Positions 2,478-40,427 of a stretch of DNA of 64,000 nucleotides are shown one piece after another. A program made the position numbers and the translations under genes. The notes beneath the pieces are model-generated. The model searched no databases. It saw nothing but the letters and a program-made list of their open reading frames with translations, and was not told where the DNA came from. The stretch's first letter is position 1, and every line of letters starts with the position of its first letter. The stretch lies in contig NC_056554.1 of the NCBI RefSeq assembly GCF_910596095.1, forward strand, positions 7,546,001-7,610,000. Reading direction: 5' to 3'. The DNA is from Thunnus maccoyii (Eukaryota; Chordata; Actinopteri; Scombriformes; Scombridae).

Positions 2478-2537
2478 TCATGTCTTGACAGATTGAATCT
2501 TCAGGGACTGTGGCGACAATCCGTATCGTCGGAAGAA
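2478..2537 (-). CDS. Lectin/FN3 gene last exon: C-terminal module part 2 and stop
   Basis: After the acceptor 'aatcaag' the exon reads FFRRYGLSPQSLKIQSVKT and stops at TGA (2478-2480). The join to the previous exon, VLEE-FFRRYGLSP, makes a plausible helix-loop-strand. There is no transmembrane or cytoplasmic sequence. The (CA)n tract at 2557-2580 sits immediately upstream of the acceptor on the minus strand. The nearest minus-strand AATAAA signals are at 1978-1983 and 1920-1925, inside the duplicated OGA segment. Confidence 0.68.
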   Translation of the reverse strand, partial: FFRRYGLSPQSLKIQSVKT

Positions 2538-5500
2538 CTTGATTAAAAAAAAGATACACACACACACGCACACACACGCAACAAACAAAAAACAAATGTT
2601 ATTACTGAACACAATAATTTGTAGATTATTTGAATTAAAAGTGAGAAGAAACTTGTCATGATGTCGACAGAGACTGAATTGAAACAGCAGTTTATTCTCA
2701 CCTCCTCCAACACACTCTGCATGTCTGAGTCTGAGAGCTGAACATATGAGTTCAATCTGATCTTCAATCCAACAACATACCCTGTTGACATAAATGTAAA
2801 ATATGTTACATGAAATAATACACATTATAATATAAATGGATAATCTATTACATTAATGAGTATTCAACATCAGTTAAAATATGTTGACCAAAAATATTGT
2901 GCCTGTATCACAATAATTAAATACTACACATAATCGTATACTATTAGTTATTATCACCGATGAGTATAATTTGTATTATAGCACTTTTTAAAAAAACTAC
3001 ATTTAAGTGTCATAACATACATTAAAACAACAATTATGATTCCAACATTTATGAAAAACAGTCAAATGTATGTCACAAAACAAAAAAAGTCTAAAATGTC
3101 TTTTCTGTACACAGTACTACTTCAAATAATATGTCTTACTGTTGTTGTTTTATATTTTATAAATCATGTTGAAATTTTATCCATTTAAATAATTGTATAG
3201 TAAGTATGAATTCATGGCTTTATAAACACAAGTAGCTTAGTTTATTTTTTTGGCTGCAATTAAAAGGAGATTCACATAATGAATGGTTAACAAGAAGTAC
3301 AATTATAAATATAAATATAAATATAAAGGATAAAAAACAATACAGTTGTGATTGGGAAATCAATCATAATATAAATCTGATGAGAATACAATTATCAATT
3401 GGGCACTAAAAACAAAAGCTCAGGCCCATGTAATGAATGTAACAAATGCATATACTTACGAGGCCCTTCTGTTGTAGTCAAAGTCATTTTTGGCAAGACA
3501 GTGGTTGTTCACATGGAAAGAAAATTAGATACACAGGAATTAATATTTTGTTACAATAATGTCAAATATATTATATTAAATAAATGTGATGTATACATTT
3601 TTCTAGAATTTCATTTAAATGTAAGCTAAATTACATATGTTTTTTACTTAACACAAAAAGAGAGGAAAAAATAATGACGAGAAAAGGTGAGGTGATGTTC
3701 AGTGTGTCATTTAAATTGTCCTTGAACGGTGCAAAGATAAAACAAAACAAAACAAAACAAGAAACATGGAAGGGAAAAATGCAACGTGAAACTGAAGGGC
3801 AGTTCTTAAGTGTATGAATGAGGATTCTTAAATCTAACAAAGAAACAGTTACTACTGCTGCTGGTGGTTATGTTAACTGACTGATAGCTGCCCATATTGT
3901 GATAGAATGCGTCAGCTTTCACCCACAATTTGTTCAGTTTGGCTACTGCTGATGCTAACTGGGTTTCCGGGTGCTTACCTGCACTCACTAGGTAGTGGCT
4001 ACCACTACATTGCAACTAAGCTCATATACCATTAGTTATTAACTATTTTGGTGATCCGGTACTAATTTAAACATGTATTTCATCACCTAGTCCTGTATAT
4101 TGTCCTGTGTACACTGCTAAGAGAGAGAAACAGTGTTGTGCCTGGTTAAACACACATCAGTGAAGTGAAATATCTCACCAGTGACTGCAGTGATGTTTAC
4201 TCCACTGCTTCTGACGTTCTCAAACACAGAGAAGAGAGTGAATGTGTATTTAGTTCCAGCAGTGAGAGATGACACTGTGTGAGTTACTGCTCCATCTCCA
4301 TCTGGTGCAGTGATGTTTATCTCTGTACCATTAAACTGGAGAATGAAGCTGACATTGTTGTTCACTTTATTCCACTGCAGAGTGATGCTGGTCTCATTTT
4401 GACCTGTTGATCTGAAGCTTTTTGTGTTTGGAGGAGCTACAAGTGAAAAGAAGCAGGGATTGATTTCACTAAGAAAGAACTGACTGGTACATGAAGTTCC
4501 TTTCATGATATTGTTGCTGCTAAATGCCTGTTGTTCATATTTGCTGTTTACAGTTGCTAACAGTTATGGCTGCTACTAACTGGCATTGACTAGCTTGTTG
4601 CAGCCACCACAATTCAAGCTAATCCATGAACAGTTAGGTAACCATTCATACATCTGAATACATCTTTTATTATCTATCAGGTTGTCGTATGTAAATTAAT
4701 TAAACAGAACAACTGTGTTATGCCTGGTTCAAAACAGATAAATTAAAAGAATATATTATATAGTTAATTTGATATTTCTCACCAGTGACTGCAGTAATGT
4801 TTACTCCACTGCTTCTGATGTTCTCAAACACAGAGAAGAGAGTGAATGTGTATTTAGTTCCAGCAGTGAGAGATGAGACTGTGTGAGTTACTGCTCCATC
4901 TCCATCGGGTGCAGTGATGTTTATCTCTGTACCATTAAACTGGAGAATAAAGCTGACATTGTTGTTCACTTTATTCCACTGCAGAGTGATGCTGGTCTCA
5001 TCTTGTCCTGTTGATATCAAACTGTTTGTGTTTGGAGGAGCTGCAACAGAAAAGGAGTAGAAATGTATTTCATTGAGAAAGAACTGCCTGCAAAAAAGTG
5101 TTTCATTCCATTCAAAAGAGCTGTAAATATAAATGTCACTCTATTAATGTGTTGCTTCCTTTTACTATTACTGCTGATAAATACTACTAACTGTCCTATC
5201 ACACCAGGTTCTACATGTGGTTCATTACATGATATTGTTGCTGCTAAGTGTTTGCTGTTCATACTTGCATTTACAGTTGCTAACAGTTATGGCTGCTACT
5301 AACTGGCATTGACTAGGTTGTCGCTGCCACCACAATTCAAGCTAATCCATGAACAGTTAGGTAACCATTCATACATCTGAATACATCTTTTATTATGTGT
5401 CAGGTTGTCATATACTATGTAAATTAATTGACACAGAACAACTGCGTTATGCTTGGTTCAAAATAGATAAATCAAAATCATATATTATATTGTAAATATG

Positions 5501-8500
5501 TGAAATATCTCACCAGTGACTGCAGTAATGTTTACTCCACTGCTTCTGATGTTCTCAAACACAGAGAAGAGAGTGAATGTGTATTTAGTTCCAGCAGTGA
5601 GAGATGAGATTGTGTGAGTTACTGCTCCATCTCCATCTGGTGCAGTGATGTTTATCTCTGTACCATTAAACTGGAGAATAAAGCTGACATTGTTGTTCAC
5701 TTTATTCCACTGCAGAGTGATGCTGGTCTCATCTTGTCCTGTTGATCTGAAGCTTCCTGCATTTGGAGGAGCTGAGACAGAAAAAGAGAAGAAAGAAAAT
5801 GTATTAACAAACGACTGTCTGTAAAAAATGTAAATGTTTCCTCTGGCTGTTAAAGATGCTCCATTTTGCATCCCTACATGAATAAAAACGAATGCTGTCT
5901 ATGAAAAAAAAACAACAAGTGAATAAACTGTTTGCATTACTAATAATGAAGTTTTTTTTATCCAGTTTTCACATTTTAGGGTCTAATCCATTCCACTATA
6001 TCTGACAATAGAGGTGTAATCAACAATAAATAAAAATCACAACGTCAGAGTAGTTTTATACTGAATAGGTATGTCTTAGTTTCACACTGGTGGACTGAAA
6101 AGGAGATGATGACTTGTTAAGGTGATATAGTATATAGAAATAAAGTGAAATATCTCACCAGTGACTGCAGTAATGTTTACTCCACTGCTTCTGACGTTCT
6201 CAAACACAGAGAAGAGAGTGAATGTGTATTTAGTTCCAGCAGTGAGAGATGAGACTGTGTGAGTTACCGCTCCATCTCCATCGGGCGCAGTGATGTTTAT
6301 CTCTGTATCATTAAACTGGAGAATAAAGCTGACATTGTTGTTCACTTTATTCCACTGCAGAGTGATGCTGGTCTCATCTTGTCCTGTTGATCTGAAGCTT
6401 CCTGTGTTTGGAGGAGCTGAGACAGAAAAAGAGAAGAAAGAAAATGTATTAACAAAGGACTGTCTGTAAAAAGTGTAAATGCTTCCTCTGGCTGTTAAAG
6501 ATGCTCCATTTTGCATCCCTATATGAATAAAAACTTATGCTGTTTAAAGAAAACTAACAAGTGAATGCATTGTTTGCATTCTTAACAATTATATGTATGT
6601 ATCCGGGATTCACACTTTATAGTCTAATCCATTCAATTATATTTGACAACAGAGATGTAATCAACAATAAATAAAAAATCACAGGGTCGGAGGAATTTCA
6701 CACTGAGTAGATATGTCTTAGTTTCACACTGGTGGACTGAAAAGCAGACGGTGACTTGTTAAGGTGATATAGTATATAGAAATAAAGTGAAATATCTCAC
6801 CAGTGACTGCAGTAATGTTTACTCCACTGCTTCTGATGTTCTCAAACACAGAGAAGAGAGTGAATGTGTATTTAGTTCCAGCAGTGAGAGTTGAGACTGT
6901 GTGAGTTACTGCTCCATCTCCATCTGGTGCACTGATGTTTATCTCTGTATCATTAAACTGGAGAATAAAGCTGACATTGTTGTTCACTTTATTCCACTGC
7001 AGAGTGATGCTGGTCTCATCTTGTCCTGTTGAACTGAAGCTTCCTGTGTTTGGAGGAGCTGAGACAGAAGAAGAGAAGAAAGAAAATGTATTAACAAACG
7101 ACTGTCTGTAAAAAGTGTAAATGTTTCCTCTGGCTGTTAAAGATGCTCCATTTTGCATCCCTACATGAACAAAAACTTATGCTGTATACAAGAAAACTAA
7201 CAAGTGAATGCATTGTTTGCATTCTTAACAATTATGTTTCTTTATCCAGGATTCACATTTTATAGTCTAATCCATTCAATTATATTTGACAACAGAGATG
7301 TAATCAACAATAAATAAAAAATCACAGGGTCGGACTGAAAAGCAGACAGTGACTTGTTAAGGTGAAACAGTGTATAGAAATAAAGTGAAATATCTCACCA
7401 GTGACTGCAGTAATGTTTATTCCACTGCTTCTGATGTTCTCAAACACAGAGAAGAGAGTGAATGTGTATTTAGTTCCAGCAGTGAGAGATGACACTGTGT
7501 GAGTTACTGCTCCAACTCCATCTGGTGCAGTGATGTTTATCTCTGTACCATTAAACTGGAGAATAAAGCTGACATTGTTGTTCACTTTATTCCACTGCAG
7601 AGTGATGCTGGTCTCATCTTGTCCTGTTGATCTGAAACTTACTGCATTTGGAGGAGCTGAGACAGAAAAAGAGAAGAAAGAAAATGTATTAACAAACGAC
7701 TGTCTGTAAAAAATGTAAATGTTTCCTCTGTCTGTTAAAGATGCTCCATTTTGCATCCCTACATGAATAAAAACGAATGCTGTCTATGAAAAAACTAACA
7801 AGTGAATAAAGTGTTTTCATTACTAATAATGAAGTTTTTTTATCCAGTTTTCACATTTTAGGGTCTAATCCATTCCACTATATCTGACAACAGAGGTGTA
7901 ATCAACAATAAATAAAAATCATAACGTCAGAGTAGTTTTATACTGAATAGGTATGTCTTAGTTTCACACTGGTGGACTGAAAAGCAGATGGTGACTTGTC
8001 AAGGTGAAACAGTGTATAGAAATAAAGTGAAATATCTCACCAGTGACTGCAGTAATGTTTACTCCACTGCTTCTGATGCTCTCAAACACAGAGAAGAGAG
8101 TGAATGTGTATTTAGTTCCAGCAGTTAGAGATGAGACTGTGTGAGTTACTGCTCCATCTCCATCTGGTGCAGTGATGTTTATCTCTGTACCATTAAACTG
8201 GAGAATAAAGCTGACATTGTTGTTCACTTTATTCCACTGCAGAGTGATGCTGGTCTCATCTTGTCCTGTTGATCTGAAGCTTCCTGCATTTGGAGGAGCT
8301 GAGACAGAAAAAGAGAAGAAAGAAAATGTATTAACAAAGGACTGTCTGTAAAAAGTGTAAATGTTTCCTCTGGCTGTTAAAGATGCTCCATTTTGCATCC
8401 GTATATGAATAAAAACTTATGCTGTTTAAAGAAAACTAACAAGTGAATGCATTGTTTGCATTATTAACAATTATGTGTCTGTATCCAGGATTCACACTTT

Positions 8501-11500
8501 ATAGTCTAATCCATTCAATTATATTTGACAACAGAGATGTAATCAACAATAAATAAAAAATCACAGGGTCGGACTGAAAAGCAGACAGTGACTTGTTAAG
8601 GTGAAACAGTGTATAGAAATAAAGTGAAATATCTCACCAGTGACTGCAGTAATGTTTATTCCACTGCTTCTGATGTTCTCAAACACAGAGAAGAGAGTGA
8701 ATGTGTATTTAGTTCCAGCAGTGAGAGATGACACTGTGTGAGTTACTGCTCCAACTCCATCTGGTGCAGTGATGTTTATCTCTGTACCATTAAACTGGAG
8801 AATAAAGCTGACATTGTTGTTCACTTTATTCCACTGCAGAGTGATGCTGGTCTCATCTTGTCCTGTTGATCTGAAACTTACTGCATTTGGAGGAGCTGAG
8901 ACAGAAAAAGAGAAGAAAGAAAATGTATTAACAAAGGACTGTAAAAAGTGTAAATGTTTCCTCTGTCTGTTAAAGATGCTCCATTTTGCATCCCTACATG
9001 AATAAAAACGAATGCTGTCTATGAAAAAACTAACAAGTGAATAAAGTGTTTTCATTACTAATAATGAAGTTTTTTTATCCAGTTTTCACATTTTAGGGTC
9101 TAATCCATTCCACTATATCTGACAACAGAGGTGTAATCAACAATAAATAAAAATCATAACGTCAGAGTAGTTTTATACTGAATAGGTATGTCTTAGTTTC
9201 ACACTGGTGGACTGAAAAGCAGATGGTGACTTGTCAAGGTGAAACAGTGTATAGAAATAAAGTGAAATATCTCACCAGTGACTGCAGTAATGTTTACTCC
9301 ACTGCTTCTGATGTTCTCAAACACAGAGAAGAGAGTGAATGTGTATTTAGTTCCAGCAGTTAGAGATGAGACTGTGTGAGTTACTGCTCCATCTCCATCT
9401 GGTGCAGTGATGTTTATCTCTGTATCATTAAACTGGAGAATAAAGCTGACATTGTTGTTCACTTTATTCCACTGCAGAGTGATGCTGGTCTCATCTTGTC
9501 CTGTTGATCTGAAGCTTCCTGCATTTGGAGGAGCTGAGACAGAAAAAGAGAAGAAAGAAAATGTATTAACAAAGGACTGTCTGTAAAAAGTGTAAATGTT
9601 TCCTCTGGCTGTTAAAGATGCTCCATTTTGCATCCGTATATGAATAAAAACTTATGCTGTTTAAAGAAAACTAACAAGTGAATGCATTGTTTGCATTATT
9701 AACAATTATGTGTCTGTATCCAGGATTCACACTTTATAGTCTAATCCATTCAATTATATTTGACAACAGAGATGTAATCAACAATAAATAAAAAATCACA
9801 GGGTCGGACTGAAAAGCAGACAGTGACTTGTTAAGGTGAAACAGTGTATAGAAATAAAGTGAAATATCTCACCAGTGACTGCAGTAATGTTTATTCCACT
9901 GCTTCTGATGTTCTCAAACACAGAGAAGAGAGTGAATGTGTATTTAGTTCCAGCAGTGAGAGATGACACTGTGTGAGTTACTGCTCCAACTCCATCTGGT
10001 GCAGTGATGTTTATCTCTGTACCATTAAACTGGAGAATAAAGCTGACATTGTTGTTCACTTTATTCCACTGCAGAGTGATGCTGGTCTCATCTTGTCCTG
10101 TTGATCTGAAACTTACTGCATTTGGAGGAGCTGAGACAGAAAAAGAGAAGAAAGAAAATGTATTAACAAAGGACTGTAAAAAGTGTAAATGTTTCCTCTG
10201 TCTGTTAAAGATGCTCCATTTTGCATCCCTACATGAATAAAAACGAATGCTGTCTATGAAAAAACTAACAAGTGAATAAAGTGTTTTCATTACTAATAAT
10301 GAAGTTTTTTTATCCAGTTTTCACATTTTAGGGTCTAATCCATTCCACTATATCTGACAACAGAGGTGTAATCAACAATAAATAAAAATCATAACGTCAG
10401 AGTAGTTTTATACTGAATAGGTATGTCTTAGTTTCACACTGGTGGACTGAAAAGCAGACAGTGACTTGTCAAGGTGATATAGTATATAGAAATAAAGTGA
10501 AATATCTCACCAGTGACTGCAGTAATGTTTACTCCACTGCTTCTGATGTTCTCAAACACAGAGAAGAGAGTGAATGTGTATTTAGTTCCAGCAGTTAGAG
10601 ATGAGACTGTGTGAGTTACTGCTCCATCTCCATCTGGTGCAGTGATGTTTATCTCTGTACCATTAAACTGGAGAATAAAGCTGACATTGTTGTTCACTTT
10701 ATTCCACTGCAGAGTGATGCTGGTCTCATCTTGTCCTGTTGATCTGAAGCTTCCTGCATTTGGAGGAGCTGGACAGAAAAAGAGAAGAAAGAAAATGTAT
10801 TAACAAAGGACTGTCTGTAAAAAGTGTAAATGTTTCCTCTGGCTGTTAAAGATGCTCCATTTTGCATCCGTATATGAATAAAAACTTATGCTGTTTAAAG
10901 AAAACTAACAAGTGAATGCATTGTTTGCATTATTAACAATTATGTGTCTGTATCCAGGATTCACACTTTATAGTCTAATCCATTCAATTATATTTGACAA
11001 CAGAGATGTAATCAACAATAAATAAAAAATCACAGGGTCGGAGGAATTTCACACTGAGTAGATATGTCTTAGTTTCACACTGGTGGACTGAAAAGCAGAC
11101 GGTGACTTGTTACGGTGATATAGTATATAGAAATAAAGTGAAATATCTCACCAGTGACTGCAGTAATGTTTACTCCACTGCTTCTGATGTTCTCAAACAC
11201 AGAGAAGAGAGTGAATGTGTATTTAGTTCCAGCAGTGAGAGATGAGACTGTGTGAGTTACTGCTCCATCTCCATCTGGTGCAGTGATGTTTATCTCTGTA
11301 CCATTAAACTGGAGAATAAAGCTGACATTGTTGTTCACTTTATTCCACTGCAGAGTGATGCTGGTCTCATCTTGTCCTGTTGATATCAAACTGTTTGTGT
11401 TTGGAGGAGCTGCAACAGAAAAGGAGTAGAAATGTATTTCATTGAGAAAGAACTGCCTGCAAAAAAGTGTTTCATTCCATTCAAAAGAGCTGTAAATATA

Positions 11501-23500: not shown

Positions 23501-26500
23501 TTTATACTGAATAGGAATGTCTTAGTTTCACACTGGTGGACTGAAAAGGAGATGATGACTTGTTAAGGTGATATAGTGTATAGAAATGAAGTGAAATATC
23601 TCACCAGTGACTGCAGTAATGTTTACTCCACTGCTTCTGATGCTCTCAAACACAGAGAAGAGAGTGAATGTGTATTTAGTTCCAGCAGTGAGAGATGAGA
23701 CTGTGTGAGTTACTGCTCCATCTCCATCTGGTGCAGTGATGTTTATCTCTGTACCATTAAACTGGAGAATAAAGCTGACATTGTTGTTCACTTTATTCCA
23801 CTGCAGAGTGATGCTGGTCTCATCTTGTCCTGTTGATATCAAACTGTTTGTGTTTGGAGGAGCTGCAACAGAAAAGGAGTAGAAATGTATTTCATTGAGA
23901 AAGAACTGCCTGCAAAAAAGTGTTTCATTCCATTCAAAAGAGCTGTAAATATAAATGTCACTCTATTAATGTGTTGCTTCCTTTTACTATTACTGCTGAT
24001 AAATACTACTAACCGTCCTATCACACCAGGTTCTACATGTGGTACGTGGTTCATTACATGATGTTGTTGCTGCTAAGTGTTTGCTGTTCATACTTGCATT
24101 TACAGTTGCTAACAGTTATGGCTGCTACTAACTGGCATTGACTAGCTTGTCGCTGCCACCACAATTCAAGCTAATCCATGAACAGTTAGGTAACCATTCA
24201 TACATCTGAATACATCTTTTATTATGTGTCAGGTTGTCATATAGTATGTAAATTAATTGACACAGAACAACTGCGTTATGCTTGGTTCAAAATACATAAA
24301 TCAAAATCATATATTTTATTATAAATATGTGAAATATCTCACCAGTGACTGCAGTAATGTTTACTCCACTGCTTCTGACGTTCTCAAACACAGAGAAGAG
24401 AGTGAATGTGTATTTAGTTCCAGCAGTTAGAGATGAGACTGTGTGAGTTACTGCTCCATCTCCATCTGGTGCAGTGATGTTTATCTCTGTACCATTAAAC
24501 TGGAGAATAAAGCTGACATTGTTGTTCACTTTATTCCACTGCAGGGTGATGCTGGTCTCATCTTGTCCTGTTGAACTGAAGCTTCCTGTGTTTGGAGGAG
24601 CTGAGACAGAAAAAGAGAAGAAAGAAAATGTTTTAACAAAGGACTGTCTGTAAAAAGTGTAAATGTTTCCTCTGGCTGTTAAAGATGCTCCATTTTGCAT
24701 CCCTATATGAATAAAAACTTATGCTGTTTAAAGAAAACTAACAAGTGAATGCATTGTTTGCATTATTAACAATTATGTGTCTGTATCCAGGATTCACACT
24801 TTATAGTCTAATCCATTCAATTATATTTGACAACAGAGATGTAATCAACAATAAATAAAAAATCACAGGGTCGGAGGAATTTCACACTGAGTAGATATGT
24901 CTTAGTTTCACACTGGTGGACTGAAAAGCAGACGGTGACTTGTTACGGTGATATAGTACATAGAAATAAAGTGAAATATCTCACCAGTGACTGCAGTAAT
25001 GTTTACTCCACTGCTTCTGATGCTCTCAAACACAGAGAAGAGAGTGAATGTGTATTTAGTTCCAGCAGTGAGAGATGAGACTGTGTGAGTTACTGCTCCA
25101 TCTCCATCTGGTGCAGTGATGTTTATCTCTGTACCATTAAACTGGAGAATAAAGCTGACATTGTTGTTCACTTTATTCCACTGCAGAGTGATGCTGGTCT
25201 CATCTTGTCCTGTTGATATCAAACTGTTTGTGTTTGGAGGAGCTGCAACAGAAAAGGAGTAGAAATGTATTTCATTGAGAAAGAACTGCCTGCAAAAAAG
25301 TGTTTCATTCCATTCAAAAGAGCTGTAAATATAAATGTCACTCTATTAATGTGTTGCTTCCTTTTACTATTACTGCTGATAAATACTACTAACTGTCCTA
25401 TCACACCAGGTTCTACATGTGGTTCATTACATGATGTTGTTGCTGCTAAGTGTTTGCTGTTCATACTTGCATTTACAGTTGCTAACAGTTATGGCTGCTA
25501 CTAACTGGCATTGACTAGCTTGTCGCTGCCACCACAATTCAAGCTAATCCATGAACAGTTAGGTAACCATTCATACATCTGAATACATCTTTTATTATGT
25601 GTCAGGTTGTCATATAGTATGTAAATTAATTGACACAGAACAACTGCGTTATGCTTGGTTCAAAATACATAAATCAAAATCATATATTTTATTATAAATA
25701 TGTGAAATATCTCACCAGTGACTGCAGTAATGTTTACTCCACTGCTTCTGACGTTCTCAAACACAGAGAGGAGAGTGAATGTGTATTTAGTTCCAGCAGT
25801 GAGAGTTGAGACTGTGTGAGTTACTGCTCCATCTCCATCTGGTGCAGTGATGTTTATCTCTGTACCATTAAACTGGAGAATAAAGCTGACATTGTTGTTC
25901 ACTTTATTCCACTGCAGGGTGATGCTGGTCTCATTTTGTCCTGTTGATATCAAACTGTTTGTGTTTGGAGGAGCTGAGACAGAAAAAGAGAAGAAAGAAA
26001 ATGTTTTAACAAAGGACTGTCTGTAAAAAGTGTAAATGTTTCCTCTGGCTGTTAAAGATGCTCCATTTTGCATCCCTATATGAATAAAAACTTATGCTGT
26101 TTATAGAAAACTAACAAGTGAATGCATTGTTTGCATTATTAACAATTATGTGTCTGTATCCAGGATTCACACTTTATAGTCTAATCCATTCAATTATATT
26201 TGACAACAGAGATGTAATCAACAATAAATAAAAAATCACAGAGTCGGAGGAATTTCACACTGAGTAGATATGTCTTAGTTTCACACTGGTGGACTGAAAA
26301 GCAGATGGTGACTTGTTACGGTGATATAGTATATAGAAATAAAGTGAAATATCTCACCAGTGACTGCAGTGATGTTTACTCCACTGCTTCTGATGTTCTC
26401 AAACACAGAGAAGAGAGTGAATGTGTATTTAGTTCCAGCAGTGAGAGATGAGACTGTGTGAGTTACTGCTCCATCTCCGTCTGGTGCAGTGATGTTTATC

Positions 26501-29500
26501 TCTGTACCATTAAACTGGAGAATAAAGCTGACATTGTTGTTCACTTTATTCCACTGCAGAGTGATGCTGGTCTCATCTTGTCCTGTTGAACTGAAGCTTC
26601 CTGTGTTTGGAGGAGCTGAGACAGAAAAAGAGAAGAAAGAAAATGTATTAACAAACGACTGTCTGTAAAAAATGTAAATGTTCACTCTGGCTGTTAAAGA
26701 TGCTCCATTTTGCATCCCTACATGAATAAAAATAAATGCTGTCTATGAAAAAACTAACAAGTGAATAAACTGTTTGCATTACTAATAATGAAGTTTTTTT
26801 TTAAATCCAGTTTTCACATTTTAGGGTCTAATCCATTCCACTATATCTGACAACAGAGGTGTAATCAACAATAAATAAAAATCACAACGTCAGAGTAGTT
26901 TTATACTGAATAGGAATGTCTTAGTTTCACACTGGTGGACTGAAAAGGAGATGATGACTTGTTAAGGTGATATAGTATATAGAAATGAAGTGAAATATCT
27001 CACCAGTGACTGCAGTAATGTTTACTCCACTGCTTCTGATGTTCTCAAACACAGAGAAGAGAGTGAATGTGTATTTAGTTCCAGCAGTGAGAGATGAGAC
27101 TGTGTGAGTTACTGCTCCATCTCCATCTGGTGCAGTGATGTTTATCTCTGTACCATTAAACTGGAGAATAAAGCTGACATTGTTGTTCACTTTATTCCAC
27201 TGCAGAGTGATGCTGGTCTCATCTTGTCCTGTTGATATCAAACTGTTTGTGTTTGGAGGAGCTGCAACAGAAAAGGAGTAGAAATGTATTTCATTGAGAA
27301 AGAACTGCGTGCAAAAAAGTGTTTCATTCCATTCAAAAGAGCTGTAAATATAAATGTCACTCTATTAATGTGTTGCTTCCTTTTATTATTACTGCTGATA
27401 AATACTACTAACTGTCCTATCACACCAGGTTCTACATGTGGTTCATTACATGATGTTGTTGCTGCTAAGTGTTTGCTGTTCATACTTGCATTTACAGTTG
27501 CTAACAGTTATGGCTGCTACTAACTGGCATTGACTAGCTTGTCGCTGCCACCACAATTCAAGCTAATCCATGAACAGTTAGGTAACCATTCATACATCTG
27601 AATACATCTTTTATTATGTGTCAGGTTGTCATATAGTATGTAAATTAATTGACACAGAACAACTGCGTTATGCTTGGTTCAAAATACATAAATCAAAATC
27701 ATATATTTTATTATAAATATGTGAAATATCTCACCAGTGACTGCAGTAATGTTTACTCCACTGCTTCTGACGTTCTCAAACACAGAGAAGAGAGTGAATG
27801 TGTATTTAGTTCCAGCAGTGAGAGTTGAGACTGTGTGAGTTACTGCTCCATCTCCATCTGGTGCAGTGATGTTTATCTCTGTACCATTAAACTGGAGAAT
27901 AAAGCTGACATTGTTGTTCACTTTATTCCACTGCAGAGTGATGCTGGTCTCATCTTGTCCTGTTGAACTGAAGCTTCCTGTGTTTGGAGGAGCTGAGACA
28001 GAAAAAGAGAAGAAAGAAAATGTATTAACAAACGACTGTCTGTAAAAAATGTAAATGTTCACTCTGGCTGTTAAAGATGCTCCATTTTGCATCCCTACAT
28101 GAATAAAAATAAATGCTGTCTATGAAAAAACTAACAAGTGAATAAACTGTTTGCATTACTAATAATGAAGTTTTTTTTTTTTAATCCAGTTTTCACATTT
28201 TAGGGTCTAATCCATTCCACTATATCTGACAATAGAGGTGTAATCAACAATAAATAAAAATCACAACGTCAGAGTAGTTTTATACTGAATAGGAATGTCT
28301 TAGTTTCACACTGGTGGACTGAAAAGCAGACGGTGACTTGTTAAGGTGATATAGTATATAGAAATAAAGTGAAATATCTCACCAGTGACTGCAGTAATGT
28401 TTACTCCACTGCTTCTGATGTTCTCAAACACAGAGAAGAGAGTGAATGTGTATTTAGTTCCAGCAGTGAGAGATGAGACTGTGTGAGTTACTGCTCCATC
28501 TCCATCTGGTGCAGTGATGTTTATCTCTGTACCATTAAACTGGAGAATAAAGCTGACATTGTTGTTCACTTTATTCCACTGCAGAGTGATGCTGGTCTCA
28601 TCTTGTCCTGTTGAACTGAAGCTTCCTGTGTTCGGAGGAGCTGAGACAGACAAAGACAAGTAAGAAAATGTATTAACAAAGGACTGTCTGTAAAAAATGT
28701 AAATGTTCACTCTGGCTGTTAAAGACGGCTCATTTTGCATCCCTACATGAATAAAAACGATTGCTGTCTATGAAAAAAGTAACAGGTGAAAAAACTGTTT
28801 GCATTACTATAAATGAAGTTTTTTTTCTTTATGCAGTTTTCACATTTTAGGGTCTAATCCATTCCACTATATCTGACAACAGAGGTGTAATCAACAATAA
28901 ATAAAAATCACAACGTCAGAGTACTTTTATACTGAATAGGTATGTCTTAGCTTCACACTGGTGGACTGAAAAGCAGACAGTGACTTGTCAAGGTGATATA
29001 GTATATAGAAATAAAGTGAAATATCTCACCAGTGACTGCAGTGATGTTTACTCCACTGCTTCTGATGTTCTCAAACACAGAGAAGAGAGTGAATGTGTAT
29101 TTAGTTCCAGCAGTGAGAGATGAGACTGTGTGAGTTACTGCTCCATCTCCATCTGGTGCAGTGATGTTTATCTCTGTATCATTAAACTGGAGAATAAAGC
29201 TGACATTGTTGTTCACTTTATTCCACTGCAGAGTGATGCTGGTCTCATCTTGTCCTGTTGATCTGAAGCTTTTTGTGTTCGCAGGAGCTGAGAAAAAGAT
29301 CATTCAACACATTTTTAACATTGGTTGGTTTGCAAAAATGTTTTAATATATTTTCCCCTTAGAGACTTGATACTCTATATATTGTGGATTATGCAGAAGC
29401 CCTGATAGGAAAGTGAGAAAAAAAAATCTGGTGATCCATTTTCAAAGTATGATCTAAATTTGTGTCTCTCCTTTGTTTATGATGGAAGAACAGGTGAAAA

Positions 29501-32500
29501 AAACTTTTCTGTTTAGTTACAAGAGGTTGAAGTGCACCATTACCCAATGTTCAAAATTGGACTAAAAGCATTCATGTTTTCTTCTGAATTAGTTTTAATT
29601 TCTCAACACTCTCTGAACAGAAGTTAACTACAGTATATTATGTGTTAACAAGTTATGTAACATTACTGTCATGTCTTTCTTTTGTCACCTGGAAGAAAAC
29701 ATGACTGCCTTTAGTCCCACTTAGAACATGGGGTAGTGGTGCAATTCAGCCTCTTGTGGCTGAAATGAGTATTACAACAAGAAACACTTAGAAAAATTAT
29801 CCTAAAAAGAAAAAAAAATCACCAGGCAAAACTCTTTTTTTCACCTGTTCTTAAGTCATAAACACAGGAGAGAAAACAATTTAGATTAGACTTAGAAAAT
29901 GGATCACCAGAATTGTTTTTCTCACTTTCCTATCAGGGCTTCTGCATAATCCACAATATAGAGAGTATCAAGTATATACAGCATAATACTGTGCATCTTA
30001 TTTTGAGGGCGTGAAGACCTGCTCAATTGCTTAATTGAACATTCATGAAATTATATATCTCACCAGTGACTGCAGTGATGTTTACTCCACTGCTTCTGAT
30101 GTTCTCAAACACAGAGAAGAGAGTGAATGTGTATTTAGTTCCAGCAGTGAGAGATGAGACTGTGTGAGTTACTGCTCCATCTCCATCTGGTGCAGTGATG
30201 TTTATCTCTGTACCATTAAACTGGAGAATAAAGCTGACATTGTTGTTCACTTTATTCCACTGCAGAGTGATGCTGGTCTCATCTTGTCCTGTTGATGTCA
30301 AACTGTTTGTGTTTGGAGGAGCTGCAAAAGAAAAGAAGTAGAAATTTATTTCATTTAGAAAGAACTGCCTGCAAACAAGTGTTTCATTCCATTGAAAAGA
30401 GCCGTAAATATAAATGTCACTCTATTAATGTGTTGATTCCTTTTACTATTACTGCTGATAAATACTACTAACCGTCCTATCACACCAGGTTCTACATGTG
30501 GTACGTGGTTCATTACATGATATTGTTGCTGCTAAGTGTTTGCTGTTCATACTTGCTGTTTACAGTTGCTAACAGTTATGGCCGCTACTAACTGGCATTG
30601 ACTAGGTTGTCGCTGCCACCACAATTCAAGCTAATCCATGAACAGTTAGGTGACCATTCATACATCTGAATACATCTTTTATTATCTATCAGGTTGTCAT
30701 ATAGTATGTCAAGTAATTGACAGAACAACTGTGTTATGCCTGATTCAAAATAGATAAATTAAAATAATATATCATATAGTAAATGTGTGAAATATCTCAC
30801 CAGTGACTGCAGTAATGATCACTCCACTGCTTCTGACGTTCTCAAACACAGAGAAGAGCGTGAAAGTGTATTGAGTTCCAGCAGTGAGAGATGAGATTGT
30901 GTGAGTTACTGCTCCATCTCCATCTGGTGCAGTGATGTTTATCTCTGTACCATCAACCTGGAAAATCACGTCGTCGGTGATGTTCGCATTATTCCATTCC
31001 AGAGTAATGCTGGTTTCATTTTGTGTTATCAGTCTGAAGATTTCTGCATTGGGTGGAATTGAGACAAAGAGGACAACATACAAGACAGAGATGACATGAA
31101 ATGGTATAAATGTTTTTTTTTCATATTTGCTAATCCATCAGCTTTTTAATATATGTATTGTAACACATATATTGACCTATAGTACATCATGATGATCTGT
31201 TATATCAATGTCATAATCACTATTCTCAATGACAATCAACCTCCACTTATAAATCAGTTGATGAATTTACTTTTGTTACTGTAGGTAATCTACAGCATGC
31301 CTTCTTACATCAAACAGTATAATACTGTTGAGACACATTTAAGTAAGCCATGCTAACATTATGTACTAATATTTGTTATTAATGTTTAAAATAATACAGT
31401 TTCTATTTGAAATTACTGTATGTGTAGACAGTGGACAGTCAATCTCTTCTACAGTAACTTTTCGTGTTTTCTTTTGTTCAGAAAAATGTATTCTGAAATG
31501 AGAGTATTCATTTTATATGACTTGATTAAGGTTATGTGCCTGTTAACAACATTTTATTGATGGCAAGCATTCGTCTCATAGACGACAAAGTCCTTTCATT
31601 ATCTTCTTAAATATCGTGCTATCAATATAACAAGGTGGAGATTTCCACAGGCTTATGTGTATTGTATTATCGCCTGATGAATTAGCCTCATTTATGCTGT
31701 ACATCAGAACTGTAAAAATACAGAACCTTCCCGTTTCTATTTTTCTTCCCTTTTTTTAGACAGACTTGTCCATGTACACAAATTCACAAATCTAAATTAA
31801 ACTGTCTTCTTTACATGTAAATTTGATTAGACAAACAGATTTGCAGTGTTATTTTCGGAATGATTGTTTGACAATATATCGTAAGCTGCCTTATAACAAT
31901 AATGAAACTAAATGTGGGAGCAGGATTCAAGATGCATTACTTGTTTTGTAACAGATGAATGGAAAACTGAGGGCACACTCATCATCTGACCACTGTCCTG
32001 AGTCGCTAAACGATGTGGTGACACACTCCTCTGAGGCTAAGTTGGGCTGTGAGCTGGCCCAATGTCGAAACAGAGAGGTGCTCCCATCAGACCACAATTT
32101 TTCCCGGTAAAGACCAATCCACACAGTGATCCCACCCGTCAGGTTTGTGATGATGTCATTTTCTGTCTGGTTTCTTATACTGTAAGAGAAACAGTAGCAT
32201 ATGCATATCAAAATTGAGCATAACTGAAGAGGTAAAACATGACAGACATACATACAAAAAAAGAATCCACTGCACACTGCAACAGATTGTCAGTGATTGT
32301 TTGAGAATATATCATAGAGCCTTATGTAGTTATTTTAAATATTTGCTAATCAACCAAATGGACAATATAATTGACTGATTAAAAGTAGAAAACTTTAAGG
32401 ACTTGTGGTCACCTTGGCAGCGTTTGGTGATGTAATTGAATTTTTATGAGATAAGCCTGATTTCATTAACAAAAGAGATAAAAAATTAAGTAGTTGGGTC

Positions 32501-34319
32501 AGCAGTGCACTTTGTCTCAGAGTCTTCATTAGGACATACTGTACCTGGCTAGATCCACATAATTCTCCCTGCAAAATCTCTGAGCTTCGGTCCAATTTAA
32601 ACTTGTGGTGACCATAACAAAGGATGGAGTGCCATTTACTATACCTGGTTATATAGAGATGGAGATAAGTTGTAAAAAAAAAATGTCAGGATGAACTTGT
32701 AGGAAATACTCATATTGCTGCAATGTATGCATGAAGTGTCAATGAAAGAAAAAGTAGCAAGATCTGATGATCCGGATTAAGGGGGATAAAATATTGCTCA
32801 TGTCTACTCCATGCCAAATGCCATATAGAAGATCTATTTGGACCTTTGTTAATTCTAACTTGATTAGAAAACCCACCGTTGTAGCACACAAAGAATTTTG
32901 TCTCGCTGCATGGCCTGTCTCGCCATTTGCCAGAGGATTGAAAAGATTCCACACAGTGGTCTTTCCCATTAAGACCATTGGGTTGACCAGTATTCCAGTT
33001 TCTAAACTCTGTCTCTCCTTCACCGTAGAAGCTGCTGTTACTCAGGGACCATCTCCAGCTGTTCACCAAGTCATCATAGAGACCGATCCAAGCACTGCCT
33101 GTTCAAAAAGATTTTCATTCTATGAAACAACTGCAATATACAGTATAGTGAGAAATAACTTAAAACATAAATTATTTTACTGAATAGACTTTGATCAGTT
33201 GATATGTTCTGAATGTTGTGTCTCCTCTATTTATCATTTTTTTGACATTACAAATAATATTTTATAATTGCCTTTATGTGTGGCAAGTTTACCAAGATGA
33301 TTGCATGGTTAATGTACAGTACAGTACTTGATTCCAGTATTGAGAACTTGCCTGTGTAGTTTGATGCGATGCTGTTAACAGCACTGACGTCAGCTGTGTT
33401 TTCTATGGTGGCCAGGTCAGTGTAGACCTGTCTGCAGAAGCTCTGTGCTTCAGTCCAGTTCACTGATGTGTTCACAAAGTAGTACTGACGAGACTGACCA
33501 GAGGCAACACTGACTAGTGCTCCTAAAACAAAGCATATTCATTTATTTTATCACTTACTAGGGTGAAGCTTTATTTGTTTGCTGTTTACTGTTTGAAGAA
33601 CAGTAAACAGCACTTTGTAAAGAGTTGAAATGTTTTTGTATATTTTTCATAGTGAGGCACAGTGATTGATTTACATCTAAGTTTCTAATTTATTTGTAAT
33701 TATAATGAAACCCTCTTACCCCACAATGTCTGCCATGTAATTGACTACGGTGAGCTGTATCATCACTGTAGTGAATGAAAACATTGAATGCTCTACTGTA
33801 CATGAACAAAACAGCCCCACAAGACTTTATCTCTAATGCCGTAACAATTTGTCTTGAGCCAGATCAAGTTTCCAGCTAAATCAGTGTTCACTACTGACAA
33901 TAATAACAAAAGAACCAGTTCAACTACCAGTTGAAATAAAGCAGAATGCACGAACTGTTAAAGAATTGAACTACAGTGAGATAAAAAAGTGTTTTATTTA
34001 TCCTCATAGAGCCTTTTTAAATAAAACAAGAGTGAGTTAAATGTTTAGGCTGAGACATGTACATATTCTCTCCCTAACATATTGCCTATTGGTTGACTTT
34101 CTTTGTAAATAAAAACCATTGTATCATAATCTTCATTTAAAACTATGATTTTAAAAATTGACCCTACTTAACAACTTTTCTGTACTGAGAATTCCTCCCC
34201 CAAAACCCTGTGTGTAGGCTACAACACTGAGAAAGATTGATTAAAAAAGTCAAACAGTCAGAATAATCAAACAAAAGGCACCAACCTGTGAGCACACTGA
34301 TGATCAGTCCATAATCCAT
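2478..34319 (-). CDS. Giant C-type lectin / FN3-repeat secreted protein (whole gene, 48 exons)
   Basis: Predicted product of about 3,822 residues. Order of parts: signal peptide (1-20), C-type lectin domain 1 (about 25-142), C-type lectin domain 2 (about 143-255), 41 FN3 domains (about 256-3776), and a 46-residue C-terminal module. The exons are listed in separate entries; their lengths sum to 11,469 bp, exactly 3,823 codons with the stop. The FN3 domains are 86 residues, keep the core Trp (LQW) and Tyr (TKYTF), and are highly alike. No transmembrane segment is visible after the array, so secretion is inferred. Lectin domains suggest glycan or ligand binding, but the Ca-binding motifs are not canonical. 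FN3 repeats of this sequence type are known to me from fish receptor-phosphatase-like and lectin-like predictions. I cannot name an orthologue. The gene is head-to-head with OGA, 6.5 kb apart. Confidence 0.85.
2702..2781 (-). CDS. Lectin/FN3 gene penultimate exon: C-terminal module part 1
   Basis: Acceptor 'gtcaacag' and donor 'gtgagaat' bound an 80-bp exon entering in phase 1 and leaving in phase 0. It reads GYVVGLKIRLNSYVQLSDSD then MQSVLEE. Alternating hydrophobic residues followed by an acidic helix resemble short beta-alpha modules found at the C-termini of fish lectin-like extracellular proteins, possibly SEA-like. That resemblance is from memory and tentative. Confidence 0.7.
2782..4178 (-). 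other. Large AT-rich intron before the C-terminal module
   Basis: This 1.4-kb interval separates FN3-41 from the C-terminal exons. It is AT-rich with short repeats such as (ATAAAT)n at 3301-3325 and (AAAAC)n at 3733-3757. A strong 'gtaagt' donor motif on the minus strand near 3455, 9 bp after a 'caacag' acceptor-like motif, could define a 9-bp in-frame microexon. I could not support it further. No other coding sequence was seen. Confidence 0.5.
4179..4436 (-). CDS. FN3-41, last FN3 exon
   Basis: A 258-bp exon with the form APPNTKSFRSTGQNETS and an extra NET sequon. Its upstream acceptor is 'cttgtag', unlike the two acceptor types used elsewhere in the array. It ends in phase 1 at AVTG, which joins in frame to the C-terminal module exon at 2702-2781. 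Its flanking introns are the most diverged of the class, consistent with its edge position. Confidence 0.87.
4783..10768 (-). CDS. FN3-31 to FN3-40 exons (copy A of the 6.38-kb block)
   Basis: Ten 258-bp phase 1-1 exons: 10511-10768, 9873-10130, 9276-9533, 8638-8895, 8041-8298, 7399-7656, 6801-7058, 6159-6416, 5514-5771 and 4783-5040 (FN3-31 to FN3-40). Within the block a two-exon unit recurs at 1235-1239 bp: 7399, 8638 and 9873; 8041, 9276 and 10511. The FN3-31 acceptor has the same one-base loss as FN3-21, so that mutation predates the 6.38-kb duplication. Domain sequences are open throughout, with intact core Trp and Tyr. Confidence 0.9.
7399..10768. repeat. Nested two-exon repeats of about 1235 bp
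   Basis: FN3-36/35, FN3-34/33 and FN3-32/31 form three tandem two-exon units at spacings of 1239 and 1235 bp. The same triplet occurs in copy B at 13777-17146. Within a unit the first exon has the GVG/GIN variant and the second has GDG/GVN. The basic unit of one exon plus one intron is about 600-645 bp. Confidence 0.9.
11152..17146 (-). CDS. FN3-21 to FN3-30 exons (copy B of the 6.38-kb block)
   Basis: Ten 258-bp phase 1-1 exons: 16889-17146, 16251-16508, 15654-15911, 15016-15273, 14419-14676, 13777-14034, 13179-13436, 12537-12794, 11892-12149 and 11152-11409 (FN3-21 to FN3-30). FN3-21 to FN3-29 match FN3-31 to FN3-39 at an offset of 6378 bp, with identical domain sequences except for FN3-23. 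FN3-23 has FNGT where FN3-33 has FNDT. FN3-22, FN3-24 and FN3-26 carry GVGAVTH instead of GDGAVTH and GINITAV instead of GVNITAV. FN3-27 has the NISAPDG form. The acceptor of FN3-21 has lost one base (ctgtccag instead of ctgtctcag) but keeps its AG. Confidence 0.9.
11152..17530. repeat. 6378-bp tandem duplication, copy B
   Basis: Exons and introns repeat those of 4783-11152 at an offset of 6369 bp before, and 6378 bp after, a 9-bp insertion (a repeated 'acatgtggt' near 11580-11600). Differences are few: an A/G change at about 6604 versus 12982, small changes next to FN3-29/39, and a segment around FN3-23/33 where the copies resemble different neighbours. Both boundaries fall within FN3 exons (4783-5040, 11152-11409, 17530-17787), as expected from unequal crossing-over between misaligned FN3 exons. 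Confidence 0.92.
17530..27261 (-). CDS. FN3-6 to FN3-20 exons (zone of 5-exon, 3.4-kb repeats)
   Basis: Fifteen 258-bp phase 1-1 exons: 27004-27261, 26358-26615, 25716-25973, 24985-25242, 24343-24600, 23605-23862, 22958-23215, 22316-22573, 21585-21842, 20943-21200, 20205-20462, 19558-19815, 18916-19173, 18176-18433 and 17530-17787 (FN3-6 to FN3-20). Exon positions recur at an offset of exactly 3400 bp: 19558, 22958 and 26358; 20205 and 23605; 20943 and 24343; 21585 and 24985; 22316 and 25716. FN3-7, FN3-12 and FN3-17 encode identical domains. FN3-8 and FN3-13 share rare changes (QNETS, VSTL, TLLSV). FN3-9, 11, 16 and 19 have FESIRSS in place of FENIRSS. Every exon is open and has a GT donor and AG acceptor. 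Confidence 0.9.
19558..26358. repeat. Two tandem 3400-bp, five-exon repeat units
   Basis: The intervals 19558-22957 and 22958-26357 are near-identical, with a partial third unit after 26358 and a partial three-exon unit before 19558 at about 2028 bp spacing. Each unit has five FN3 exons and alternates two intron classes: class A of about 340-390 bp and class B of about 473-480 bp, which contains a 'tgctgataaatactactaac' core. A few substitutions distinguish the units, for example FENI versus FENV in FN3-15/FN3-10 and FENI versus FESI in FN3-14/FN3-9. Confidence 0.92.
27735..30321 (-). CDS. FN3-2 to FN3-5 exons
   Basis: Four 258-bp phase 1-1 exons: FN3-2 30064-30321, FN3-3 29030-29287, FN3-4 28383-28640 and FN3-5 27735-27992. 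Each encodes one 86-residue FN3 domain running from APPN or APAN to GVNITAVTG. FN3-3 begins APANTKSFRST and has the FNDT form of the third sequon. FN3-2 and FN3-3 are separated by 776 bp that include a foldback element (29365-29973), the largest interruption in the array. FN3-4 has a slightly diverged upstream intron, shown by 'gacaaagacaag' in place of the usual purine run next to its acceptor. Confidence 0.88.
29365..29973. mobile_element. Foldback MITE-like element with long inverted repeats
   Basis: The left arm (about 29365-29510) begins acttgatactctatatattg and continues through 'gattatgcagaagccctgat'. It is the reverse complement of the right arm (about 29830-29973) with about 90% identity by eye. 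The arms of about 145 bp flank about 320 bp of unrelated sequence without coding capacity. It lies in the intron between FN3-2 and FN3-3. No clear target duplication was identified, so the superfamily is unknown. Confidence 0.8.
30801..31043 (-). CDS. FN3-1, divergent first FN3 exon
   Basis: This is the most divergent FN3 domain. It has NETSITLEWNNANITDD where the others have an NNNVS run, and ends GVIITAVTG. It is 243 bp, against 258 bp for all other FN3 exons. The position of the usual acceptor (gtctcag) reads 'gtctcaa', so the G is lost. The next AG, 'aatgcag', lies exactly 15 bp downstream and keeps phase 1, removing five residues. The donor is the usual 'gtgagatatt'. Divergence suggests that this copy escaped the homogenisation that affected the rest of the array. 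Confidence 0.8.
31941..32179 (-). CDS. Lectin/FN3 gene exon 5: second half of C-type lectin domain 2
   Basis: It encodes SIRNQTENDI, VWIGLYREKLW, WASSQPN, EECVTT, WSDDEC and FPFICYK. The WIGL core and the three remaining conserved cysteines are present. The Ca-site motifs are again QPN and WSD rather than EPN/QPD and WND. Sequons are NQT and NLT. The acceptor is 'ctcttacag'. The donor 'gtaatg' comes after ACA A, in phase 1, and leads into the FN3 array. Reading past the donor meets a stop after only three codons, so splicing is required. Confidence 0.83.
32545..32644 (-). CDS. Lectin/FN3 gene exon 4: first half of C-type lectin domain 2
   Basis: It encodes GIVNGTPSFVMVTTSLNWTE followed by AQRFCRENYVDLA, parallel to exon 2: an NWTEAQ helix and first Cys in RFCRE. 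It enters in phase 1 and leaves in phase 2 before 'gtacag'. The split Ser codon joins to exon 5 to give DLASIRNQTEND, a standard C-type lectin stretch. Confidence 0.8.
32877..33098 (-). CDS. Lectin/FN3 gene exon 3: second half of C-type lectin domain 1
   Basis: It encodes GSAWIGLYDD, then WNTGQPNG, HCVES, KWRDRPC and FFVCYN. These are the WIGL core and the last three of the four conserved disulphide cysteines. The canonical Ca/sugar motif would be EPN or QPD followed by WND. Here they are QPN and WRD, so classical mannose- or galactose-type binding cannot be assumed. The exon is phase 1 at both ends. Donor is 'gtgggt' at 32871-32876 and acceptor is 'gaacag'. Confidence 0.85.
33352..33522 (-). 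CDS. Lectin/FN3 gene exon 2: first half of C-type lectin domain 1
   Basis: The acceptor 'ttttag' precedes the exon, which completes the signal peptide and then reads SRQYYFVNTSVNWTEAQSFC and onward. This is the typical start of a C-type lectin domain: first strand, NWTEAQ helix, and first conserved Cys in SFCRQ. The exon ends in SNYTG in phase 1. The donor is 'gcaagt' rather than GT; in this CAG|GCAAGT context it fits the minor GC-AG intron class, and only this choice joins exon 3 cleanly. Sequons NTS, NWT and NYT are present. Confidence 0.82.
34286..34319 (-). CDS. Lectin/FN3 gene exon 1: start codon and signal peptide
   Basis: The ATG at 34319 opens MDYGLIISVLT and the exon ends in phase 1 before a 'gttggt' donor. 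Joined to exon 2 it reads MDYGLIISVLTGALVSVASG, a hydrophobic run typical of a signal peptide with likely cleavage near SVASG. This start is preferred because it is the only nearby ATG that joins in frame to the first lectin exon and supplies a leader. On the minus strand a TTTAAATA box lies about 105 bp upstream, near 34421-34430, and is a possible TATA element. Confidence 0.8.
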
Positions 34320-39324: not shown

Positions 39325-40427
39325 GCCCGAAATTATTCATACCCCTGGCAAATTTTGACTTAAAGTTTCTTTTATTCAACAAGCAAGTTTTTTTGACCGG
39401 AAATGACACAGGCTTCTCCCAAAAGATAATAAGACCATGTACAAGAGGCATCATTGGGGAAAAAATTATTTCTCAGCTTTTATTTATTTTTGAACAAAAA
39501 GTGGCATGTCAAAGATTATTCATACCCTTTGTTCCACGGACGTAGACCAAGGAGGACACCACTTCTCTAGATAAGGTACACAAAAGCTCCGCTTGGCCTT
39601 TGCAAATGCTCATCTGGACAAAGAAGAAGACTTCTGGTCTTCTGTTTTATGGTCAGCTGAAACAAAAATTGAATTGTTTGGCCACAATGATGTATCCTTC
39701 ATTTGGCGTAAAAAAGGAGAAGCCTTCAACCCTAAGAACACCATCCCCACTCTCAAACATGGTGGTGGGAACCTAATGCTTTGGGGGTGTTTTTCAGCCA
39801 ATGGACCAGGGAACCTAATCACAGTAAACGGCACCATGAAAAAAGAGCAATACATCAAGATTCTCAACAACTACATCAGGCAGTCTGCAGAGAAACTTGG
39901 CCTTGGGCACCAGTGGACATTTCAGCACCACAACGACCCAAAACACTCAGCAAAAGTGGTGAAGAAATGGTTAGCGGACAAAAACATTAACGTTTTGCAG
40001 TGGCCCAGTCAGAGTCCTGACTTGAATCCAATTGAGAATCTGTGGAGGAAGCTAAAGATCAGGGTGATGGCAAAGAGACCTTCCAACCTGAAAGAGTTGG
40101 AGCTCATCGCTAAAGATGAATGGGCAAAAATACCAGTGGAGACATGCAAAAAGCTGGTCAGCAATTATAGGAAGCTTTGATTGCTGTAATAGCCAATAAA
40201 GGCTATTGATTATTGAGAAGGGTATGAATAATTTTGGACATGCCACTTTTTGTTCAAATGTAAATAAAAGCTGAGAAATATTTATTTCCACAGTGATGCC
40301 TCTTGTACATTGTCTTATTATCTTCTGGTAGATGCCTGTGTCATTTCCAATCAAGAAAAAACTTGCTGGTTGAATAAAAGTAACTTTAAGTCAAAATTTG
40401 CCAGGGGTATGAATAGGGGTATGACTG
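39325..40427 (+). mobile_element. Internally deleted Tc1/mariner element with IR/DR ends
   Basis: Inverted repeats of about 200 bp bound the element: left about 39325-39527, right about 40219-40427. Each carries two direct-repeat motifs. On the left 'attattcataccc' appears at 39333 and again near 39515; on the right its complement appears at 40219 and 40404. This double-motif arrangement is the IR/DR structure of fish Tc1 elements. At about 1.1 kb it is shorter than the usual 1.6 kb. The missing part is the N-terminal, DNA-binding half of the transposase. Confidence 0.9.
39593..40180 (+). pseudogene. Truncated Tc1 transposase (C-terminal DDE part)
   Basis: About 195 codons are open and end in a natural stop. 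Recognisable parts are LWSAETKIELFG, HGGGNLMLWGCFS, HNDPKHSAKVV, WPSQSPDLNPIENLWRKLK and WAKIPVETC. Tc1 enzymes need a DDE triad: Asp in WSDETK, Asp in HNDPKH and Glu in PIENLW. The second Asp and the Glu are present, but the first is replaced by Ala (WSAETK). No in-frame ATG starts it and the helix-turn-helix region is missing. It is therefore an inactive relic. Confidence 0.9.

Follow-up and report, generated by a model that had tools for sequence, protein, structure and literature searches.

The stretch of DNA analysed here, referred to as the window, comprises 64,000 nt of Thunnus maccoyii contig NC_056554.1 (assembly GCF_910596095.1, positions 7,546,001 to 7,610,000). On its minus strand, from 34319 to 2478, lies a gene that would encode a giant secreted protein with two C-type lectin domains at the head (CTLD1 and CTLD2), a shaft of 41 fibronectin type III (FN3) domains and a small C-terminal tail. 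It is called the window gene below. Its features are listed in Table 1, together with those of the flanking DNA, where the gene for O-GlcNAcase (OGA) is found. Some coordinates refer to a tandem copy of the window gene, paralogue B, which lies outside the window.

Table 1. Coordinates of the window gene, its repeat structure and the neighbouring features (positions within the window)
Feature	Position	Strand	Remarks
Exon 1	34286..34319	-	holds the start codon and begins the signal peptide (MDYGLIISVLTG..); identical in paralogue B
Exon 2	33352..33522	-	remainder of signal peptide, first part of CTLD1; GC donor at end
Exon 3	32877..33098	-	remainder of CTLD1; QPN and WRD motifs
Exon 4	32545..32644	-	first part of CTLD2
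Exon 5	31941..32179	-	remainder of CTLD2; QPN and WSD motifs
FN3 exon 1 of 41	30801..31043	-	243 bp, diverged
FN3 exons 2-41	4179..30321	-	258 bp each, one domain per exon, phase 1-1
Array part with 3.4-kb higher-order period	17496..28674	-	97.6% identical
Two consecutive array blocks	4751..17810	-	repeat period of 6.4 kb; identity 99.3% across 6,693 aligned columns
Possible 9-nt micro-exon	3460..3468	-	19 of 19 bases including flanks identical in paralogue B
Tail exon 1 (YVVGLKIRLNSYVQLSDSDMQSVLEE)	2702..2781	-	probable homologue of double-CTLD gene tail
Tail exon 2 and stop codon (TGA at 2478)	2478..2537	-	preceded by phase-0 intron, as in double-CTLD genes of contig C4
Tandem-duplication end	1..2093	+	duplicate of part of OGA (intron 2, exon 3, some of intron 3) that matches stretches of 45525-47966 at 96-97% identity
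OGA (O-GlcNAcase)	40860-53800	+	head to head with the window gene

The window gene and its predicted product

When the exons were joined, we obtained a coding sequence of 11,478 nt specifying 3,825 residues, with a single stop codon at its very end. The micro-exon can be skipped with the frame intact, which leaves 3,822 residues. All 41 FN3 exons end in a GT donor and are in phase 1 on both sides; 40 of them have exactly the same length, and the exception is the first. A preliminary description of this DNA had given the coordinates, strand, domain order and exon count correctly, as judged from the 41 FN3 exon ends and the in-frame coding sequence with its one terminal stop. Its estimate of about 3,822 residues holds for the model without the micro-exon and falls short of the model that includes it. 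The GC donor in CTLD1 (G/GCAAGT, at 33352) has counterparts at the tail exons of a number of double-CTLD genes in this genome (loci L023, L025 and others).

Pfam was searched with both heads, FN3 units 1-3, the final FN3 unit and the tail of the window gene. The two heads matched Lectin_C at 70.6 and 62.3 bits (cut-off 22.6), and fn3 was matched at 66.6 bits over the three units and at 28.3 bits for the single unit (cut-off 25); a search of NCBIfam returned one match only, far below its cut-off. The predicted protein has a mass of about 408 kDa before glycans and is acidic, with an isoelectric point of 4.7. It contains 174 N-glycosylation sequons (N-x-S/T), 166 of them within the FN3 array, and eight cysteines, all within the lectin part. 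Past residue 40 the highest mean hydropathy of any 19-residue stretch is 1.12, so that no membrane anchor is evident there, which bears out the preliminary description on this point. The same description had proposed a secreted, rod-like lectin glycoprotein: a single secreted product with lectin heads, a long array and abundant sequons agrees with the gene model, and the rod shape can only be presumed. A mucosal or immune role of the predicted protein is plausible.

All genome searches covered the genome from which the window comes (782 Mb in 54 contigs), whose contigs are numbered here with the prefix C, the window lying on C22. A lectin exon of the window gene found a second match 40.6 kb to the left. 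This match led to paralogue B (about C22:7521295-7539817), a complete gene that runs from the signal peptide through the two lectin domains, 20 FN3 exons and the micro-exon to the tail; it specifies 2,019 residues and has no stop codon inside the reading frame. In DNA the two genes are 95.5-100% identical in their five head exons and three end exons (5-bp flanks included), and the arrays differ in length (41 versus 20 FN3 units). It is unlikely that the lectin-FN3 architecture is a joining error, because the second complete copy has the same heads and tail around its 20 FN3 exons. The in-frame join of signal peptide, two lectin domains, 41 FN3 exons and C-terminal module, as it had been read from the window at the outset, is confirmed by the gene model.

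Relatives of the heads, the tail and the shaft

With CTLD1 as query we found at least 140 matches at E<=0.001, a lower bound given that 150 of 203 candidates were scored. Six of these matches lie in the two giant genes; the rest are grouped in clusters of double-CTLD genes, which are spread over several contigs. Such lectin-domain clusters occur on C22 at 3.43-3.62, 4.04-4.11, 7.03, 17.5 and 18.3 Mb, on C4 at 34.5 Mb and on C15 at 19.0 Mb, several of them sharing the contig of the window gene. Single-exon relatives in this genome have a first CTLD that shares 42-50% identity with CTLD1 of the window gene. At eight double-CTLD loci the highest identity pairs CTLD1 with the first CTLD and CTLD2 with the second in all eight cases; by the best single-segment E-value the same pairing is seen in five of the eight, and the remaining three (L021, L022 and L026) have the matching CTLD split between exons. 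An intron of CTLD1 held in common with the C4 genes was considered and rejected: the positions are neighbouring but the phases disagree.

The tail of the window gene, when searched against the genome, matched only the two giant copies (4 exon matches at E<=10). In a more sensitive search of the eight double-CTLD loci the top two hits were L022 and L026, two near-identical C4 genes, at the position of their own tail (E 0.16). The C4 tail consists of two exons separated by a phase-0 intron at the same point as in the tail of the window gene, and in the genome it has 39 exon matches at E<=0.001 and another 8 that are weaker, located in the double-CTLD clusters and at a few further sites. The pairwise score of the window gene's tail with the C4 tail was reached in 5 of 5000 shuffles. 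Against a profile of eight family tails the window gene's tail scored 8.0 bits, compared with at most 5.3 bits for 2000 shuffles. These eight tails came from 18 loci scanned with tblastn, which was used after an automatic pattern had detected tail exon 1 in two loci only; near-identical tails were omitted, as were L034, L037 and L038 (one tail exon) and L027 (none found). The second halves of the window gene's tail and of the family tails are strongly different. It is likely, but not certain, that the window gene's tail is homologous to that of the double-CTLD genes. By sequence, then, the lectin heads belong to the double-CTLD family of this genome, and the tail does too, but more weakly. The C-terminal module, which the preliminary description had left unexplained, is probably the two-exon tail of this family, given the profile score and the phase-0 intron.

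The relatives of the shaft were found elsewhere. One FN3 repeat as query gave 83 genome matches at E<=0.001, of which 61 lie in the two giant copies and 22 at C20:16.19-16.22 Mb, so that with this query the relatives outside the giant copies are confined to one locus. Eighteen of the 22 are 60-69% identical to the query repeat and four are 33-46% identical. The C20 locus (L015-L018, C20:16.194-16.222 Mb) holds two genes in tandem that combine FN3 arrays with a tyrosine phosphatase domain, and a membrane segment was recognised by eye. Most of the 22 C20 exons contain a single FN3 domain with phase 1-1 ends, like those of the window gene, and many of the repeats have sequons at positions like those of the shaft repeats. 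The phosphatase genes also have FN3 repeats of their own that are closely alike tandem copies, and their arrays seem to have grown in a like manner.

Array turnover, origin of the gene and alternatives

The 41 FN3 exons comprise 24 distinct DNA sequences and 20 distinct protein sequences. In 150 of the 741 exon pairs of the window gene, drawn at random, the exons are 97.1% identical with 0 indels, whereas in the introns behind them identity falls to 84.3% and a pair differs by 13.8 indels on average. The ratio of nonsynonymous to synonymous differences (pN/pS) is 0.47 for the 23 distinct full-length exons, and four sequon positions are retained in 40 of 40 full-length repeats despite every substitution observed. 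Not one of the 61 FN3 exons of the two copies contains a stop codon. Higher-order repeats were seen as well: the two blocks of the 6.4-kb period are consecutive in register and have 36 differing positions, and another part of the array has a 3.4-kb period. Because of these two periods, with their 99.3% and 97.6% identity, the array structure points to recent unequal exchange, and some of the copy count, which rests on one assembly, could stem from that assembly. In a tree of the 61 FN3 exons (calculated with no support values) the first exons of both genes pair and most interior exons cluster by gene, with exceptions such as B_2. This grouping suggests that the arrays of the two copies turned over largely separately after the duplication.

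We consider it probable, if well short of certain, that we are dealing with one gene, whose product would be a secreted glycoprotein with a head of two CTLDs, an acidic shaft of 41 single-exon FN3 domains and a small tail, and that this gene arose when FN3 exons of the phosphatase type were inserted into a double-CTLD gene. That the locus is one gene is also suggested by the position of the FN3 array, which separates two parts of a gene type already known. The insertion is suggested by the placement of the heads and tail in the double-CTLD family and of the FN3 relatives only in the phosphatase pair. Phase-1 FN3 exons would have entered the intron between CTLD2 and the tail (we infer this direction of exchange between the gene families) and would have multiplied by unequal exchange, and a tandem duplication would have copied the giant gene together with part of the neighbouring OGA. 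Outside the cell the head may bind glycan or protein ligands, and the glycan-coated shaft may set its reach and packing. Shaft length would be free to vary by gain or loss of FN3 exons, because symmetric phase 1-1 exons preserve the frame at any number. Its likeliest setting in a teleost would be recognition or a barrier, as a secreted protein that resembles the soluble double-CTLD lectins of fish but is carried on a spacer. A more speculative extension, to which we give little credence at present, is that lectin reach is itself an evolving trait: shaft length would shift by FN3 exons (41 versus 20), perhaps also between individuals, the head would change at its presumed ligand face, and secreted recognition would be tuned by both, with the ectodomain module of a receptor phosphatase as its building material.

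Several results weigh against this interpretation in one part or another. CTLD2 of the window gene is interrupted by an intron that is absent from the C4 genes; the tail match is short, modest and mainly in tail exon 1, and the two loci that match it best do not count as independent. When the C20 phosphatase was compared with solved structures, the highest scores went to two-domain chains of PTPRS and LAR, ahead of the R3 receptors, because of which the R3 label is unsettled; among the single-catalytic-domain chains PTPRB ranked first, followed by PTPRJ and PTPRH, and it is likely, but not settled, that the C20 genes that would have supplied the FN3 exons are R3-type receptors. AlphaFold gave poor models of one FN3 exon alone and of an alignment of 14 of the 41 window copies (mean confidence, pLDDT, 70.5 and 62.4). 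Foldseek with the first of these models found no PDB match at E<=0.001, and among the 50 matches listed no FN3 protein, mostly carbohydrate-binding modules, phage tail and other unrelated proteins. As the models are unusable as evidence, the assignment of the FN3 fold rests on sequence. As to the heads, C-type lectins that bind sugar in a calcium-dependent manner have EPN or QPD with WND. Neither head conforms, and the canonical motifs are absent from both CTLDs; the first CTLD of a C4 relative retains EPN and WND. Classical calcium-dependent sugar binding by the heads is doubtful, because QPN with WRD or WSD stands in place of these motifs. Between the two copies the heads differ by 17 nonsynonymous and 3 synonymous changes (11 residues changed), an excess that is not significant (p 0.36), and positive selection on the heads was rejected as a firm claim. 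Seven of the 11 changed residues fall in the 57 loop residues out of 255 (p 0.004), with loops drawn by eye after the changes were known. Last, the model of a single message was read from genomic DNA, and of this genome only.

The last point would also suit two quite different explanations. One of them divides the locus in two, with a short gene for a secreted double-CTLD lectin and, adjacent to it, an FN3 gene in its own right, merged by eye in the model; double-CTLD genes lacking such an FN3 array are indeed numerous in this genome. It is very improbable, however, in view of the probable double-CTLD tail on the far side of the array, the identical order in both tandem copies and the matching phase of all exon joints. 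The other takes the gene to be decayed or non-functional and open by chance. The 3' flank of the window gene passes into OGA-derived DNA at the duplication junction, between 2230 and 2093, as might happen to such a gene, but exons free of stops throughout both arrays and free of indels in the 150 pairs, next to introns full of them, and the pN/pS value given above argue for constraint on the protein, and we give decay hardly any weight.

Some doubt attaches to the size of the array. Arrays of this kind are difficult to assemble, and the 99.3% identity of the 6.4-kb-period blocks would be expected if part of the 41 copies, for example these blocks, were haplotypes placed in tandem and the real array were shorter. 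We regard such inflation as unlikely, though not to be dismissed: the blocks differ at 36 positions and follow one another in register, and paralogue B has 20 repeats with variants of its own. Inflation would, in any case, alter the copy number and not the architecture. An alternative that concerns function has the FN3 shaft mimicking the ectodomain of a receptor phosphatase, as a soluble decoy that captures the ligands of the receptor or the microbes binding it, with the lectin head serving as an anchor. The 60-69% identity of 18 of the 22 phosphatase repeats to the shaft repeat and the similar sequon positions in many of them are compatible with mimicry, but the likeness may be mere ancestry, and we hold a decoy to be improbable.

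If the window gene did originate from a double-CTLD gene that received FN3 exons, it would offer a tangible example of exons shuffled between gene families of vertebrates, in which relatives of both likely sources persist in one genome. The tandem pair provides shafts that differ twofold in length on head and tail exons that are 95.5-100% alike in DNA. Provided that the protein is made, polymorphism in array length lends itself to direct comparison with ligand binding, the mechanics of mucus or infection. The C-terminal module, orphan-looking at first, gains a likely identity.

The unit duplicated in tandem also contains the 5' part of OGA, and the matching OGA exon-1 region was found further left. 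The partial OGA copy starts about 385 bp past the stop codon of the window gene and the first AATAAA after the stop, at 1983, is inside the copy; the 3' end of the window gene may run into OGA-derived DNA. In OGA itself, exons 3-5 (about 47.5, 48.1 and 49.8 kb) were confirmed against the solved O-GlcNAcase, and exons 1 and 2 (40.9 and 43.5 kb) and those beyond 51 kb were read by eye. A Tc1-type DNA transposon lies between the window gene and OGA (39334-40415), with inverted ends of about 198 bp that are 90.9% identical and a DDE_3 transposase reading frame. A second Tc1-like remnant is located inside an OGA intron (48640-49370, minus strand); one of its reading frames resembles helix-turn-helix models, with HTH_38 above and the Sleeping Beauty HTH below the cut-off. 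ARAGORN found no tRNA in the window.

Comparison with known systems

The best matches of both CTLDs among solved structures are members of the mannose receptor family (MRC1, MRC2, PLA2R1 and LY75). Proteins of this family consist of a cysteine-rich domain, an FN2 domain, eight or more CTLDs and a membrane anchor; the cysteine-rich and FN2 domains, the many CTLDs and the anchor were not found in the window gene. The FN3 units match fibronectin in PDB. Tenascins and fibronectin have long extracellular FN3 arrays, from which the window gene differs by its lectin head and by a model that contains no EGF, fibrinogen, FN1 or FN2 modules.

The R3-type receptor protein tyrosine phosphatases PTPRB, PTPRJ and PTPRH have multiple FN3 repeats (PMC5336234). 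The window gene is similar to them in its multiple extracellular FN3 repeats and shares the exon plan of the C20 genes; it differs in that the receptors continue into a transmembrane segment and a cytoplasmic phosphatase domain, whereas the window gene ends in its tail and a stop codon.

Among the CTLD groups of Zelensky and Gready (2004; PMC514892), group F1 consists of soluble double-CTLD fish proteins, with two or three CTLDs, at least one of which has residues typical of calcium and sugar binding. The window gene is like them in its two CTLDs and in having no membrane anchor, and related genes of this genome, whose F1 status is presumed, have a similar tail. It departs from the plan of two or three CTLDs by the 41 FN3 domains between lectin and tail, and it keeps the sugar-binding residues only in part, as QPN with WRD and WSD. 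The two-exon tail with its phase-0 intron, a family feature found in this analysis, is present in the window gene with modest similarity.

The closest precedent is Fugu CFN3, which the same survey lists in an unclassified group as a "protein with CTLD and FN3 domains" (PMC514892). The legend to Figure 2 of that survey has no mention of CFN3. The likeness, judged by the table description, is the presence of CTLD and FN3 in one predicted fish protein. The preliminary description had named no vertebrate family with this plan; since CFN3 was already listed in 2004, that statement has to be amended, and lectin plus FN3 in fish is not wholly new as a kind, as far as this table entry goes. In open-access full texts we recognised no description of a fish lectin with a long FN3 array beyond the CFN3 row, and predicted entries for the window gene may well exist in other fish. 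Apparently novel are the length of the array, the assignment of the tail to a gene family, the connection between shaft and receptor phosphatases with the likely origin that it suggests, and the tandem pair with 41 and 20 FN3 units.
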